Shown piece after piece: positions 8,284 through 63,825 of a stretch of 64,000 nt of DNA. Each line of letters opens with the position of its first letter. Position 1 is the stretch's first letter. The stretch covers positions 1 to 64,000 of the forward strand of contig JAREWP010000086.1 of assembly GCA_029001845.1 (NCBI GenBank), in the 5' to 3' direction. The notes under the pieces are model-generated. The model had not been told where the DNA came from, did not search any database, and saw only the letters and a list, made by a program, of their open reading frames with translations. This DNA comes from Candidatus Magnetocorallium paracelense. Lineage in GTDB: Bacteria; Nitrospirota; Thermodesulfovibrionia; Thermodesulfovibrionales; Magnetobacteriaceae. Position numbers and translations under genes: made by a program.

Positions 8284-8913
8284 CTAATGGAGTGCTTCGT
8301 ATACCTTTCCGACTAAGTCAGCACCGGGTTTCAGAGTTTTGTCTCCATCGTCCTTCCACTTGGCCGGGCACCCCTCGGTCTGGTTTTTGGAAAGATAAAT
8401 ATTAGCCTTCAGCTTTCTTTTCAGCTCTTCAATATTCCTTCCCATATTATAGAAATTGACCTCCGAATTTAAGAGGGTCCCATCTGGGCTTATAATAAAA
8501 GTACCTCTCAGCGTGAGTCCGGTACACTCATCGTATACACCGAAAAGCCTGCCGAGATTTCCTGTAGGATCGGCCCCCATTGGGAATTTAACGTTTTCAA
8601 GGGATTTTTCATGCCTTTGCCATGCAAGATGGACGAACTGAGTGTCAGTGCTTATTGTTATTACTTCGGCTCCAAGGGCCTTTAATCTGTCGTAATGCTC
8701 TGCCAGAGCTTCAAATTCAGTAGCTCAGACAAAGGTAAAATCAGCAGGATAAAAGAATAATATTGTCCATTTCCCCGCCTTTTTCAACTCCTCAAGAGAC
8801 CTTTCACCAAAATCACCTTTTTCGGATTCATAGGTAGTAATAGTAAAATCCGGTACATTTTGACCTACACTCAGGCCACAACATACAGTTCCCATTGTTA
8901 CTTCGTCACCCAT
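8284..8913 (-). CDS. selenocysteine-containing AhpC/Tsa-type peroxiredoxin (TGA at codon 63 read as Sec)
   Basis: 209 residues if TGA at 8725-8727 is decoded. The context is FYPADFTFV-U-ATEFEALA; in ordinary 2-Cys peroxiredoxins this site is the peroxidatic Cys (FYPxDFTFVCPTE). The frame continues past TGA without a break through the normal AhpC order: WQRHEKSL, FPMGADPTGNLGRLFGVYDE, LRGTFIISPDG, and the resolving Cys motif GCPAKW near residue 185. A good ribosome binding site (aaggagtg) precedes ATG at 8913. The enzyme reduces hydroperoxides. It sits next to superoxide reductase, which produces peroxide. Peroxiredoxins with Sec are known in anaerobes. A hairpin suited to SECIS follows the TGA, and an intrinsic terminator follows the gene. 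Confidence 0.93.
8697..8709 (-). promoter_or_regulatory. candidate SECIS hairpin of the peroxiredoxin gene
   Basis: Read on the minus strand, gctct-ggc-agagc is a perfect 5-bp stem with a GGC loop, its apical loop 21-23 nt after the TGA. Bacterial SECIS elements are short hairpins inside the coding region with the loop about 15-25 nt downstream and a G in the loop, which fits. Identified by eye. Confidence 0.6.
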
Positions 8914-9232
8914 AACGTAACACTCCTTATTAAAATTTGAATTTACAGAGTCAAAGACTCTTGAAAACCGTTTAAAGGTATAGAAACATCGATTTTAAAA
9001 AGAAACACTCTTCAGCCCTTAATTTTAATGACAGCTTGAACAGCATTAAAGCCCGCGATTCTCCAGGTATAAAAAATGAAATATTGAAGGAATTTAGTAT
9101 ATTATAACCAAAATGTTCATGTTCACGAAGTTTAGTAAAGAATATATTTCTTCATGCACTTCGTGAACTTCGTAGTTATTTGAACCCGGTCTCTTTTGGC
9201 TTATTTCCGGACTAAAGAATAAGTTTAAAAGT
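8914..9232. other. intergenic region upstream of the peroxiredoxin gene
   Basis: About 320 bp between peroxiredoxin and superoxide reductase, AT-rich. It holds an 11-bp inverted repeat (gttcacgaagt at 9121-9131, acttcgtgaac at 9158-9168) that could form a hairpin downstream of the superoxide reductase gene. A partial PerR-like half site (atattataa, about 9098-9107) is also present. A separate promoter for the peroxiredoxin gene is plausible but I cannot place it with confidence. Confidence 0.45.
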
Positions 9233-35348: not shown

Positions 35349-35367
35349 AGTTTTTTATGGAACGACA

Positions 35368-36327
35368 ATGACGGATGACTTGTTATTTTATTCTTCCCCT
35401 GTTAATTCGGTATTGGAACTAATCGGGAATACTCCTATTGTCAGGATTAATAAACTGATTGAACCGGGACAGGCTGAAGTGTACGCAAAGGTCGAGCTTT
35501 TTAACCCCTGTAAATCCGTAAAGGACAGAATATGTCTCTCTATGATAGAGGCAGCGGAAGGAGAAGGGAAACTTAAGAGCGGCGATACAGTTATCGAGCC
35601 TACTTCAGGGAATACAGGGATCGGCCTGGCCTTTGTCTGCGCTGTCAAAGGATATGACATAAAACTGACAATGCCCGACACCATGAGTATCGAACGGAGA
35701 AATATGCTCAAGGCATTTGGCGCAGAAGTAATTCTGACAGATGGCGAAAAAAATATGAACGGCGCTATTGACAAGGCAATGAACCTGGTTGAATCTATGG
35801 GGTATTTTCAACCGCAGCAATTTAAAAATCCTAATAATCCCAAAGCTCACAGAGAGGCGACTGCTCTTGAAATTATAGAACAAACAGGACAACCCGATGT
35901 TTTTATCGCCGGAGTAGGCACCGGAGGAACACTTACCGGAGTTGGTGAAATTTTAAGGGAGAGATACGGGGAGAAGGTTGAAATTATTGCCGTCGAACCG
36001 TCGGACAGCCCTGTTTTATCGGGAGGTTCCGGCAACAGACACGAAATTCAGGGAATTGGAGCAGGCTTTGTACCGGATATTTTAAACAAAGAAATCATAG
36101 ATCGTATTATAACCGTATCAAATGAAGATGCCTATGAAACCACAAGGAAACTCATTAAAGAAGAAGGGATTCTCTGTGGAATTTCTTCAGGGGCCAATAT
36201 GTACGCCGCCCTAAAGGTAGCAGGAGAGCCGGGTAACAACAAGAAAATTGTAACCCTTTTCCCTGACACCGGCGAGAGGTATCTCAGCACCAGGTTGTTT
36301 GTGAAAAAACAGACCAATGGTCATTGA
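35368..36327 (+). CDS. cysK: cysteine synthase A (O-acetylserine sulfhydrylase)
   Basis: 319 residues of the PLP-dependent fold II family. PLP lysine in CKSVKDRICLSM, substrate loop TSGNTGIGLAF, phosphate-binding GVGTGGTLTGVGE and the C-terminal SSGANMYAA. It makes cysteine from O-acetylserine and sulphide, or from a thiocarboxylated carrier protein. Followed by a paralogue and a JAMM protease, the typical carrier-dependent neighbourhood. Confidence 0.95.
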   Translation: MTDDLLFYSSPVNSVLELIGNTPIVRINKLIEPGQAEVYAKVELFNPCKSVKDRICLSMIEAAEGEGKLKSGDTVIEPTSGNTGIGLAFVCAVKGYDIKLTMPDTMSIERRNMLKAFGAEVILTDGEKNMNGAIDKAMNLVESMGYFQPQQFKNPNNPKAHREATALEIIEQTGQPDVFIAGVGTGGTLTGVGEILRERYGEKVEIIAVEPSDSPVLSGGSGNRHEIQGIGAGFVPDILNKEIIDRIITVSNEDAYETTRKLIKEEGILCGISSGANMYAALKVAGEPGNNKKIVTLFPDTGERYLSTRLFVKKQTNGH

Positions 36328-36387
36328 TGTGGTATCAAAAATTGCGCCCGGGAAAAATGGAAATCTACTGATACACCACAAGATTTA

Positions 36388-37302
36388 ATGAAAAAGATTA
36401 TAAGTAACATATACTCCGACATACTGGATACAATAGGAAATACCCCCCTGCTGCGCATAAATAACACTGTTTGGGGAATAAGCGACGGAGTCAGAATATT
36501 TGCCAAGCTGGAGATGTTCAATCCCGGAGGATCGGTAAAGGACCGCGCCGCATACGGGATGATAAGAGACGCCGAAGACAATGGCGCATTAACGAAAGAT
36601 AAGATTATCCTTGACTCTACGTCGGGAAATACAGGTATTGCATACGCCATGATATCGGCTGTCAAAGGCTATAAGGCAAGAATTGTTTTACCTGAAAACG
36701 CCAGCAGCGAGAGGAAAACGATTATATCCGGTTTTGGCGCGGAGATTGTTTATTCAAGCCCCTTTGAAGGTTCCGACGGGGCGATTAAGCTTGCAAAAGA
36801 GATATATGACAGCAATCCCAAACTCTATTTTATGCCGGATCAATACAACAATCCCTCCAATCCGAAAGCCCACTTCAATACAACAGGGCCTGAAATCATC
36901 AGGCAGACAAAGGGAGAGATAACTCACTTCATAGCAGCAACCGGAACGACCGGCACGATAATGGGAACCGGAAGGAGATTAAAGGAGTACAATAGAGAAA
37001 TACAAGTCATCGCCATTGAACCTGACAATTCCATGCACGGCTTAGAGGGCTTGAAATTTATGGCCGAATCGATCGTGCCAGGTATTTACGACACCAATTT
37101 CCCTGATAAGACCGTGTTCGTCAATACAGAGGACGCTTACGATACAGTAAAAAAACTTGCCATCGACGAAGGGCTTGCAGTAGGACATTCCTCAGGCGCC
37201 GCACTTACAGGCGCCCTTTCCGTGGCGAAAGAAATAGAACAAGGCACTATCGTCACAATATTCCCTGACGGAGGAGACAGATATCTCAGTCATGAGATAT
37301 AA
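36388..37302 (+). CDS. cysM: cysteine synthase B paralogue
   Basis: 304 residues, same fold as CysK: NPGGSVKDRAAYGMI (PLP Lys), DSTSGNTGIAYAM, ATGTTGTIMGTGR and SSGAALTGAL. The GGSVKDR form and shorter length favour CysM/CysO-dependent or cystathionine-type activity over CysK. It lies 60 bp after cysK and before a JAMM metalloprotease. Exact sulphur donor cannot be told. Confidence 0.9.
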   Translation: MKKIISNIYSDILDTIGNTPLLRINNTVWGISDGVRIFAKLEMFNPGGSVKDRAAYGMIRDAEDNGALTKDKIILDSTSGNTGIAYAMISAVKGYKARIVLPENASSERKTIISGFGAEIVYSSPFEGSDGAIKLAKEIYDSNPKLYFMPDQYNNPSNPKAHFNTTGPEIIRQTKGEITHFIAATGTTGTIMGTGRRLKEYNREIQVIAIEPDNSMHGLEGLKFMAESIVPGIYDTNFPDKTVFVNTEDAYDTVKKLAIDEGLAVGHSSGAALTGALSVAKEIEQGTIVTIFPDGGDRYLSHEI

Positions 37303-59730: not shown

Positions 59731-59920
59731 TAGAGATGATCGTTTCTAATCAGGCAAGGTATACCATTGCTGCCGTCGGCAAAAGATCGTTTTTTACCGA
59801 TCCCCACATCATGTGGCTTTAAAATGAGTTGAACCTGAAAAGTATGTTGAAAAGAACACTTGCAGGCGTCACACTGGTAATAGATTCCAAACTTAACTTT
59901 TATTGTTTCCGAGAGGTATT

Positions 59921-61360
59921 ATGAGCGAAATTAAAAGAATAGACGACAATAAAATAGAGATTCCAACGGGCTTTAAAGAGGGTATGCAGGCGCCGGGAAT
60001 AATTTTTGTGGACAGGGAACTGGAAAGTCTCCTGGAAAGTCAGGCGATCGAACAGGTCGCCAATGTTGCCACATTACCTGGGATAGTGAAGGCCTCGCTG
60101 GCAATGCCCGATATTCATACAGGATATGGTTTTTCGATAGGGGGAGTGGCCGCCTTCGACGCCGGTACCGGAATAATATCACCGGGAGGAGTCGGTTATG
60201 ACATTAATTGAGGAGTCAGGCTCCTTAGGAGCAATCTCAAAAGAGAAGAGATCGCTCTCAAGGTAAAGGACCTCGTCGGGGTCCTTTATAGAGAAATACC
60301 TTCCGGTGTCGGCTCAAAGGGGCGTATTAAGCTCGGCGTTGAGGAGCAGAAAAAAATCATTAAAAAGGGCGCCGCGTGGGCTGTAGAGCATGGTTACGGA
60401 AGCGCCGAAGATCTGGAACGAACGGAGTCCCGGGGATGCATGGAAGGCGCGGAGCCTTCCCTTATCAGCGACAGAGCTTTCGAAAGAGGCAGGGCGCAGC
60501 AAGGTACTCTGGGATCGGGCAATCATTTCCTTGAAATACAATATGTAGAAGAAATACTGGACATCAATACGGCAAATGCCTTCGGACTGTTTAAAAATCA
60601 GGTTACAATAATGATCCATACAGGGTCCCGAGGTTTTGGCCACCAGGTATGCACTGATTCCCTTGAGCTGATGCAGGTTGCAGCAAAAAAGTATAATATT
60701 CGACTTCCAGACAGGGAGTTGGCCTGTGCGCCTTTTCGCTCCCAAGAGGCGGGAGATTATTTCGCATCCATGGCGGCGGCAGCCAATTACGCCTGGGCGA
60801 ACAGGCAGTGTATAATGCATTGGACAATAGAAGCTCTGATGAAATTTCTTTCTATTTCTCCACTGGAGCTCGGCGCCGGGCTTGTATACGATGTGGCCCA
60901 CAATATCGCAAAAGTGGAGACTCATATTGTAAATGGCGAAAAAAAGAAACTCATCGTTCACAGAAAGGGTGCAACAAGGGCCTTTCCTGCAAAGCATCCC
61001 GAACTGCCCGATATTTATAAGCATGTAGGCCAGCCGGTGCTTATTCCGGGCGATATGGGAAGAGCCTCTTATATACTGGTAGGACTTGAAAAGGGAATGG
61101 AAGAGACATTCGGTTCCACATGCCACGGAGCGGGTCGCGTCATGTCAAGGCATAAGGCGATAAAGAAATCCAAAGGCAGAGCGATATGGCGCGAAATGGA
61201 GGATATGGGAATCTCTGTGAAGAGCGCCGGCAGAAGAACTCTGGCAGAGGAGATGTCAGAGGCCTATAAAGATATCTCCAATGTAGTGGATGTGGTGCAT
61301 AATGCCGGGATATCCAAAAAAGTGGCCACGCTGAAACCTATGGGAGTGATAAAGGGATAG
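59921..61360 (+). CDS. rtcB: RNA-splicing ligase RtcB with selenocysteine at a metal-binding position (TGA codon 97)
   Basis: 479 residues if TGA at 60209-60211 is decoded. The context VGYDIN-U-GVRLL matches the VGxDINCGVR motif whose Cys (Cys98 in the Pyrococcus enzyme, Cys78 in E. coli) holds the two Mn ions. The Asp of the same motif is at 94, matching the known D95/C98 spacing. The frame then continues with every RtcB block: [48 protein letters not shown] and the guanylylated-His loop [13 protein letters not shown]. RtcB joins 2',3'-cyclic phosphate and 5'-OH RNA ends with GTP. Archease precedes it. ATG at 59921 has a gagaggt site. A hairpin surrounds the TGA as a SECIS candidate. Confidence 0.9.
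60208..60240 (+). promoter_or_regulatory. candidate SECIS hairpin of rtcB
   Basis: An outer stem ttgag/ctcaa that includes the TGA, and an inner stem gctcc/ggagc with loop tta 14-16 nt after the TGA. The distance suits a bacterial SECIS; the small loop lacks the usual G, so this is weaker than the other two candidates. Confidence 0.5.
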
Positions 61361-62215: not shown

Positions 62216-62686
62216 CTACTCCAGGGGAAATCCCTTTTCCGTCCACTCTTTTACTCCGCCTCGCATCCAGTAAAGATTGGAAAATCCCATCTTTTTCAAG
62301 GCTGACACGGCCTTGGCGGACTGCCATCAGGTAGTGCTGTTACAATAGACCACAACTCTTACACGCTTGCTCAATTCCGTAAGATAGTGGCACTCCTCGA
62401 GATACTTGACAGTCCTGGCAATAGAAGACTCTTTTAAATCCCTTTCCTCTCCCACGGGGCAACTGACCGATGTCGGGAGATGACCTTTATTCATGTAGTC
62501 ATCCTCTCTCCTTGGATCTAAAATAACCATCCAGCGTCTTGAATCTATCCATGCTTTAATGGTAACGGCGTCTACCGTGGTAATTCCGTCAAGTGTTTTT
62601 GGCGTCGCTCTGGCGGCTAAAACCAAAGCATTGGCAGGGATCAAAAGAACTGAAAAAAAGATGGCGAGCGTTAGGGAGCACTTCAT
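62216..62686 (-). CDS. periplasmic rhodanese with selenocysteine (TGA at codon 120)
   Basis: 156 residues if TGA at 62327-62329 is decoded; the gene ends TAG at 62216. A signal peptide (MKCSLTLAIFFSVLLIPANA) precedes one rhodanese domain: VILDPRREDDYMNKGHLP, PTSVSCPVGEERDL, then VVYCNSTT-U-WQSAKAV and SNLYWMRGGVKEWTEKGFPLE. In the usual CNGPxCW loop the second Cys is replaced by Sec while the first Cys (116 region) stays. The downstream frame runs to a normal rhodanese end, so this is not a truncation. It overlaps the MinD-like gene stop as ATGA. A strong SECIS hairpin follows the TGA. Confidence 0.9.
62297..62315 (-). promoter_or_regulatory. candidate SECIS hairpin of the rhodanese gene
   Basis: On the minus strand caaggc-cgtgtca-gccttg gives a 6-bp perfect stem with a seven-base loop containing GU, 18-24 nt after the TGA. 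The best of the three SECIS candidates. Confidence 0.7.
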
Positions 62687-63825
62687 TTGAACGACTCAAA
62701 AAATATATCTTTCCTGACTCCTTTACCAATCAGAAAATTTACAACCTGCACCGGTTTGAAATAGAGCCTCAGTTTCCACACATTTCTGCTTGTTCCTTCA
62801 AAAATTGTTTCGTCCAGGTTGTCAATTATCTCGGCCAGGATATCTATTTCATCATCTTCAAAATTACTCTTTATATCAAGATTTTCTTTTATATTGCCCG
62901 ATATTTTTAACTCGGAAAAGAGATTATTTATAATTGAGTTAAGAGAGGTCTGATAAGAGGAACCTGACCATGATTTCAAAAACCCCGGTATATTCAGCAG
63001 GTATTTGCTAATTTCATTTGTATCGGGGAGATTTCCGAGATGGAGGAGCCGTATGTTGTAGTTTGAAGCACAATGCTTCAACAACGTGCCTGCCAGTTGA
63101 TTTTTTCCTTTGCCCGGCATCCTGTTTATTACAAGACAGGGCGCGAAACTTTCGCTGACTTCCTTTATAAGGGGGTAGATAGAGGGATCGATCTCCCGCA
63201 CCTTTTTATCCAGCCATTTCAACATGATAGCACCTTCGTAACCATCGCTTTCTCCAAGAGTATTCATGAGGGAGTCAATTTCGCGATGATTTTTAAAAAC
63301 TGCCTGAAGTTTTCTGAAAAGAACTCCCTTTATAAATCTGTAGGCATTCATAACAGCGGCAGGCTCCGGTACGGTTATTATTAATCCCTTGTCAGAGGAA
63401 GCGAAAAAATCGAGAGTACTGAAATGGGTGCCGGCCCCGAGATCGATGATTACAAAATCCGCATGAATGGCGCGAACATGTCGTATGAGTTTCATCTTTA
63501 TCCATGAAGCGGGATTCGCCATACCTGAAACATATTGCGATCCGCTGACAAGCTTCAGGTTCTCCACTTTGGTGTTTAAAAGGATTTCATCAAGGGTCGA
63601 AACTTTTTTCAGGAAAAAATTGGCAAGTGAAAGCGTGCGTCCCGTAACACCGAGATATGAGTGAAGATTGGCGCCTCCAAGGTCAAAATCTACTAAAACG
63701 ACTTTTTTCCCCAAGCCTGCCAGGGCAGTTCCGAGATTTACGGCAAAAACGCTTTTACCGACGCCCCCTTTACCTCCGCCTATGGCAAGTATATATCCTG
63801 CTTTTCTGTCCAGCTTCATAAACAA
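62683..63825 (-). CDS. MinD/ParA-type ATPase
   Basis: 380 residues. Deviant Walker A GGGKGGVGKSVFAVNLG near 15-31, then VLVDFDLGGANLHSYLG and the switch region FVIIDLGAGTHFSTLDF. Similar to the FlhG/MinD-like ATPases of the former Deltaproteobacteria, which often have a C-terminal extension as here (residues 290-380). A role in positioning flagella, pili or other structures is inferred. The downstream rhodanese overlaps its stop. Confidence 0.85.
   Translation of the reverse strand: MFMKLDRKAGYILAIGGGKGGVGKSVFAVNLGTALAGLGKKVVLVDFDLGGANLHSYLGVTGRTLSLANFFLKKVSTLDEILLNTKVENLKLVSGSQYVSGMANPASWIKMKLIRHVRAIHADFVIIDLGAGTHFSTLDFFASSDKGLIITVPEPAAVMNAYRFIKGVLFRKLQAVFKNHREIDSLMNTLGESDGYEGAIMLKWLDKKVREIDPSIYPLIKEVSESFAPCLVINRMPGKGKNQLAGTLLKHCASNYNIRLLHLGNLPDTNEISKYLLNIPGFLKSWSGSSYQTSLNSIINNLFSELKISGNIKENLDIKSNFEDDEIDILAEIIDNLDETIFEGTSRNVWKLRLYFKPVQVVNFLIGKGVRKDIFFESFK

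Follow-up and report, generated by a model that had tools for sequence, protein, structure and literature searches.

Rhodanese selenoproteins are already known, and a 2026 review lists five forms, with the motifs UxxS, UxxG, CxU, UxxG, and UxxxxU (PMC13188914), where UxxxxU is that of TsoB, listed as a rhodanese/DsbD fusion. Most uncharacterised selenoproteins are expected to be redox proteins (PMC13188914), and a selenium-substituted rhodanese (a protein perselenide) is named as a possible selenium delivery form in a work listed as reference 88 of PMC5877670. Here, we compared with these systems a rhodanese gene that carries one in-frame TGA and lies within a stretch of 64,000 nucleotides from Candidatus Magnetocorallium paracelense (the whole stretch analysed, hereafter the window). 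The features of the locus are the following:

62216..62686, minus strand: rhodanese gene (ATG at 62686..62684, in-frame TGA as selenocysteine (Sec), TAG at 62218..62216; 156 residues)
62327..62329, minus strand: in-frame TGA, predicted Sec120 at loop position 6, aligned with the invariant Cys of 37 relatives
62327..62344, minus strand: active-site loop C115-N-S-T-T-U120, preceded by a strand (residues 110-114) and followed by a helix (residues 121-132)
62606..62686, minus strand: probable signal peptide, approximately residues 1-27, MKCSLTLAIFFSVLLIPANALVLAARA, recognised by eye and similar in relatives L085 and L121
62297..62315, minus strand: candidate bSECIS hairpin of 6 bp (caaggc/gccuug) with a 7-nt loop (CGUGUCA), 11 nt after the TGA, -6.8 kcal/mol
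62683..63825, minus strand: MinD/ParA-type ATPase gene with a TTG start, upstream of the rhodanese, its TGA stop overlapping the rhodanese ATG (ATGA)

The rhodanese gene and the described Sec rhodaneses

With TGA read as U, the gene (62686..62219, minus strand) translates as MKCSLTLAIFFSVLLIPANALVLAARATPKTLDG...VVVYCNSTTUWQSAKAVSALKKMGFSNLYWMRGGVKEWTEKGFPLE, followed by TAG. A previous sequence-only reading had given the right coordinates without naming the strand, which is minus; the plus-strand frame over 62216-62686 is nonsense. The match to PF00581 extends across the TGA (53-54.3 bits vs. a gathering threshold of 22.2; profile positions 5-101/102), there is no other TGA, stop, or frameshift in the frame, and the 36 codons 3' of the TGA retain the conserved WxRGGxxxWxxKGFPxE, in agreement with the earlier claim that the sequence beyond the TGA completes a rhodanese. 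The TGA falls on the second Cys of the CX4C-W active loop, and the first Cys stays, as had been proposed; the loop itself, given earlier as CNGPxCW, reads CNSTTUW in the query, CNGxxCW being the form of its Cys relatives. The suggested alignment with Cys-containing rhodaneses placed the TGA on an invariant Cys, since loop positions 1 and 6 were both Cys in 37/37 aligned relatives. An AlphaFold2 model of the query (pLDDT 88.5) is a rhodanese whose PDB matches are rhodaneses, with C115 right after a strand and residue 120 right before a helix. The proposed signal peptide and periplasmic location are predictions that we consider plausible, judging from the N-terminus by eye and from the similar N-termini of relatives.

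Of the five listed forms, the query fits UxxS alone and fails CxU and UxxxxU by both model and motif. The UxxS form (PF00581, WP_010941598.1; PMC13188914) likewise has its Sec in the rhodanese domain, and, in a comparison made by motif alone, UxxS is matched by UWQS in the query and by UGLS, USLS, or UTLS in relatives; the Sec of this form may therefore occupy the same loop position. The query differs from it in carrying CN...UW, the signature of the CX4C-W group, and its placement with the Cys group is favoured by likelihood over that with the CRG..U group. TsoB (NF045694) shares with the query a Sec at loop position 6 and the same spacing but carries a second Sec, at position 1, and is fused to a DsbD-like part, whereas the query has Cys at position 1, only 156 residues, and no fusion. 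Its score against the TsoB model was 33.2 bits (cut-off 805), and the genome of the query contained no TsoB member above this cut-off. The CxU form, rhodanese_LYCAU (NF041203), also has a Cys followed by a Sec in the rhodanese loop, differing in spacing from the CX4U of the query, which reached 41.3 bits for a cut-off of 115. The best NCBIfam match was TIGR03865 (PQQ-dependent catabolism-associated CXXCW motif protein; 47.2 bits, cut-off 128), which has a Cys-Trp loop by name but differs in the spacing of the named motif and in that the query carries Sec in place of Cys. No NCBIfam cut-off was exceeded by the query or by either of the two Sec relatives scored against the models (L040 and L056). 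The closest overall likeness was to exported CX4C-W rhodaneses of the same class (L085, L121, L126, and L127; full-length similarity up to 39%, N-terminus included), which differ from the query in their Cys/Cys loop (CNGVKCW or CNGPKCW) and in having receptor-like genes rather than MinD as neighbours. What is new here is a CX4C-W rhodanese that retains the catalytic Cys and has its predicted Sec at position 6; should the UxxS form turn out to belong to this subfamily and to have its Sec at this position too, the query would be only another member of it.

Capacity for UGA decoding and the candidate hairpin

The genome (6.0 Mb, 99.6% complete, 103 contigs) contains tRNA-Sec with a UCA anticodon as well as SelA, SelB, and SelD, so the machinery whose absence would have spoken against Sec is in place. 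SelD has an in-frame TGA itself, in the canonical CGUAAK, followed after 13 nt by an 8-bp hairpin, and a formate dehydrogenase has one in ARLUHSP, followed after 12 nt by a hairpin with a GGTC loop. On each of the genomic criteria that we applied, the organism thus appears able to decode UGA as Sec. TGA also acts as a terminator in the MinD-rhodanese operon, and a generic recoding of TGA in the genome was rejected because the MinD gene that overlaps the rhodanese start ends in TGA.

The hairpin that follows the rhodanese TGA (62315..62297) has the 6-bp stem and the GU in the loop described for it earlier and starts 11 nt after the TGA, all consistent with bSECIS geometry, but the folding energy of the surrounding segment was not unusual (MFE z-scores +0.42 and -1.19). 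An equally stable hairpin at 11-15 nt occurred in 3.2% of synonymous recodings (2.0% when a G was required in the first two loop positions), and 8/172 comparable windows of non-Sec homologues were as good. No match was obtained with Rfam at curated thresholds; an S-element on the opposite strand was discarded as a chance match. We consider the hairpin supportive of the Sec reading and not decisive, because its loop, with 7 nt, is larger than the tetraloops (GGUC/GUUC) that most other Sec genes have.

Other genes with an internal TGA, or related to the query, were observed in the same genome. A peroxiredoxin (AhpC-TSA; 8287-8994, minus strand) has a TGA (8727..8725) at the peroxidatic Cys (FYPADFTFVU) and a short GGC-loop hairpin; Sec in TxxU is a known peroxiredoxin site (selenoprotein table of PMC13188914). 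An RtcB tRNA-splicing ligase (59903-61360, plus strand; PF01139, 582 bits) has one TGA (60209-60211), exactly at the active-site Cys that corresponds to Cys98 of P. horikoshii RtcB. Natural Sec-RtcB is absent from the 2026 selenoprotein list (PMC13188914) and was not found in papers; the RtcB case is possibly a greater surprise than the rhodanese. The segment after the RtcB TGA folds strongly (z -3.1), and no classical hairpin was found at the usual distance, the best one lying at +8 without a G in its loop. Two PALP (PLP-dependent) domains lie side by side in one frame (35350-37299, plus strand) with a single TGA between them at 36325, which is probably an ordinary stop within a tandem duplication and not Sec. 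In a separate frame of 395 residues (L003; G000:C74:86108-86743; FYCNGHTCAKSYKA), the genome also encodes a Cys/Cys CX4C rhodanese, a possible Cys counterpart of the query.

Sec and Cys at the two loop positions in relatives

Relatives were searched in genomes of the same order, class, and phylum in four overlapping searches (149, 176, 396, and 230 genomes), none of which yielded a second genome with CNxxxUW. A scan of contigs for query-like rhodaneses gave one short weak match (L053), and on plasmids there were only weak rhodanese matches (< 40% identity). The searches revealed a family of rhodaneses with CX4C loops, mostly Cys/Cys (CNGVKCWKS, CNGIKCWRS). Eight loci were UX4C (YUNGIKCW; L037, L039, L040, L050, L051, L057, L101, and L132), and seven kept the first Cys with Sec at the second position (YCRGAGUGLS; L056, L058, L060-L063, and L059, the last with an active loop two residues longer, CHGGTSGU, and a SECIS-like hairpin still in place). 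SECIS-like hairpins (5-7 bp, -6.8 to -10.2 kcal/mol, 12-15 nt after the TGA) were found in 15/15 of these Sec relatives, with loops that begin with G and are mostly GGTC. A stability of -6.0 was reached at 15/15 Sec loci vs. 22/166 windows of non-Sec homologues (Fisher p about 3e-12, ignoring relatedness). As the eight UX4C and the seven Cys...Sec loci all carry hairpins, TGA does alternate with Cys at both loop positions within the CX4C rhodanese group, and the TGA/Cys variants that the sequence-only reading had expected among relatives are borne out. The tree indicates repeated gain or loss of UX4C, with 4 or more forced changes.

Among 99 rhodaneses, Cys or Sec was present at both positions in 85, at neither in 11, at position 1 only in three, and at position 6 only in none, counts that are not phylogenetically independent, the 'neither' group (mostly SDGxxGW) being essentially one clade. 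Position 6 alone was thus seen in 0/99, which suggests that it matters only where position 1 is there. Rhodanese-like proteins that lack both loop cysteines (L102, L106-L111, L113, L134, and L135; mostly one clade and mostly SDGxxGWKSY) are probably non-catalytic.

The nearest relatives of the query are exported-looking Cys/Cys proteins, with L085 at 39% over the full length, N-terminus included. The query has an odd composition and a very long branch (1.58), and the tree could not place it. In constrained trees, grouping it with the CNGxxCWKSY proteins gained 14.5 lnL over the free search and grouping it with the CRG..U proteins gained 0.8, neither being rejected. Since the likelihood prefers the CNGxxCWKSY group, the better reading is likely that the query changed from Cys to Sec at position 6 independently. 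At L136-L139, Cys/Cys relatives of the query adjoin two large receptor-like genes that by eye resemble methyl-accepting chemotaxis proteins, which may point to a connection between sulfur redox in the periplasm and signalling.

In sister genera, the neighbouring MinD gene is conserved (13 loci, 48-54% identity), and at none of these 13 loci was a rhodanese found beside it. On this ground, the rhodanese gene looks lineage-specific. The linkage to MinD was dropped as a functional clue, MinD being kept in the family without an adjoining rhodanese. No homologue with a true stop at the TGA site, which had been named as contrary evidence, was found among those compared, a set that includes no true orthologue from the same family.

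Proposed role of the Cys/Sec loop and competing readings

The explanation that we favour, and hold to be fairly probable as a whole, is that of an exported Sec-rhodanese in which Cys115 and Sec120 would act as a redox pair that reduces sulfane sulfur or disulfides. The reading of the TGA at 62329..62327 as Sec is in itself very likely on the genomic evidence; given Sec insertion, the redox-pair role has a reasonably good chance of being right. We infer Sec insertion, export, and each chemical step of the following proposal. Decoding of UGA would put Sec at the sixth and last residue of the active loop, facing the catalytic Cys at the first. Cys115 would accept either a disulfide or a sulfane sulfur supplied by polysulfide, thiosulfate, or a persulfide, and attack on the bound species by the Sec120 selenolate would release sulfide or a thiol. 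The Cys115-Sec120 selenenylsulfide left behind would then be re-reduced by a thioredoxin/DsbD-like donor. TsoB may be the best outside hint to such a role, because in it a doubly Sec loop with this spacing is joined to a reductive electron path in the membrane.

An ordinary sulfurtransferase with Sec, in which Cys115 would carry the persulfide while Sec120 tunes it, protects it from over-oxidation, or hands sulfur or selenium on to a partner, seems to us unlikely, though it would agree with the fold and the position of the catalytic Cys, both of which are those of rhodaneses. It would also accommodate the three relatives with Cys at position 1 and neither Cys nor Sec at position 6, as well as the possible delivery of selenium by a selenium-substituted rhodanese (reference 88 of PMC5877670, as listed there). 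Nevertheless, nearly all relatives that keep position 1 have Cys or Sec at position 6, which never occurs alone; the interchange of CX4U, UX4C, and UX4U better matches a redox pair, and redox function is what the review expects of most uncharacterised selenoproteins (PMC13188914). The transfer of sulphur or selenium, proposed from the sequence at the outset, is not established, and the Cys/Sec pair is better explained by a redox role.

Quite improbable is a real stop, that is, a recent Cys-to-stop mutation that left a pseudogene or a truncated protein in a genome that uses Sec. A stop could have arisen in the gene by 74 other single-base changes, yet the TGA lies exactly at the redox Cys, the frame around it is intact with its conserved 3' segment, and relatives with strong hairpins have TGA at the same loop position. 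A decaying gene could indeed be a singleton on a long branch with an odd composition, TGC or TGT becomes TGA by one base change, the hairpin is modest, and the rhodanese is missing next to MinD in sister genera, all of which would be in line with this reading. A one-base assembly or sequencing error in a normal Cys codon, conceivable for a genome in 103 contigs and known from the assembly alone, is very improbable, as it would need to strike, in a Sec-using genome, precisely the codon that encodes Sec in relatives, and two further genes of the window (the peroxiredoxin and RtcB) have TGA at a key Cys.

Returning to the redox pair, we tentatively propose, as a possibility that falls short of a probable one, that CX4C-W rhodaneses might form a dithiol/selenol-thiol oxidoreductase class on the rhodanese fold and not be primarily sulfur transferases, with Sec at either or both positions (UX4C, CX4U, UX4U) like the UxxC/CxxU proteins of the thioredoxin fold, and that the query would belong to this class as an exported reductase of sulfane sulfur or disulfides. 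UX4C and CX4U genes could be truncated by automatic annotation, because the tested loci of these types (one each) miss the NCBIfam cut-offs. If Sec can replace either loop Cys, the second Cys is probably catalytic, and a group of poorly understood exported rhodaneses would become a testable class of redox enzymes, for which the Sec/Cys pairs would serve as natural variants.
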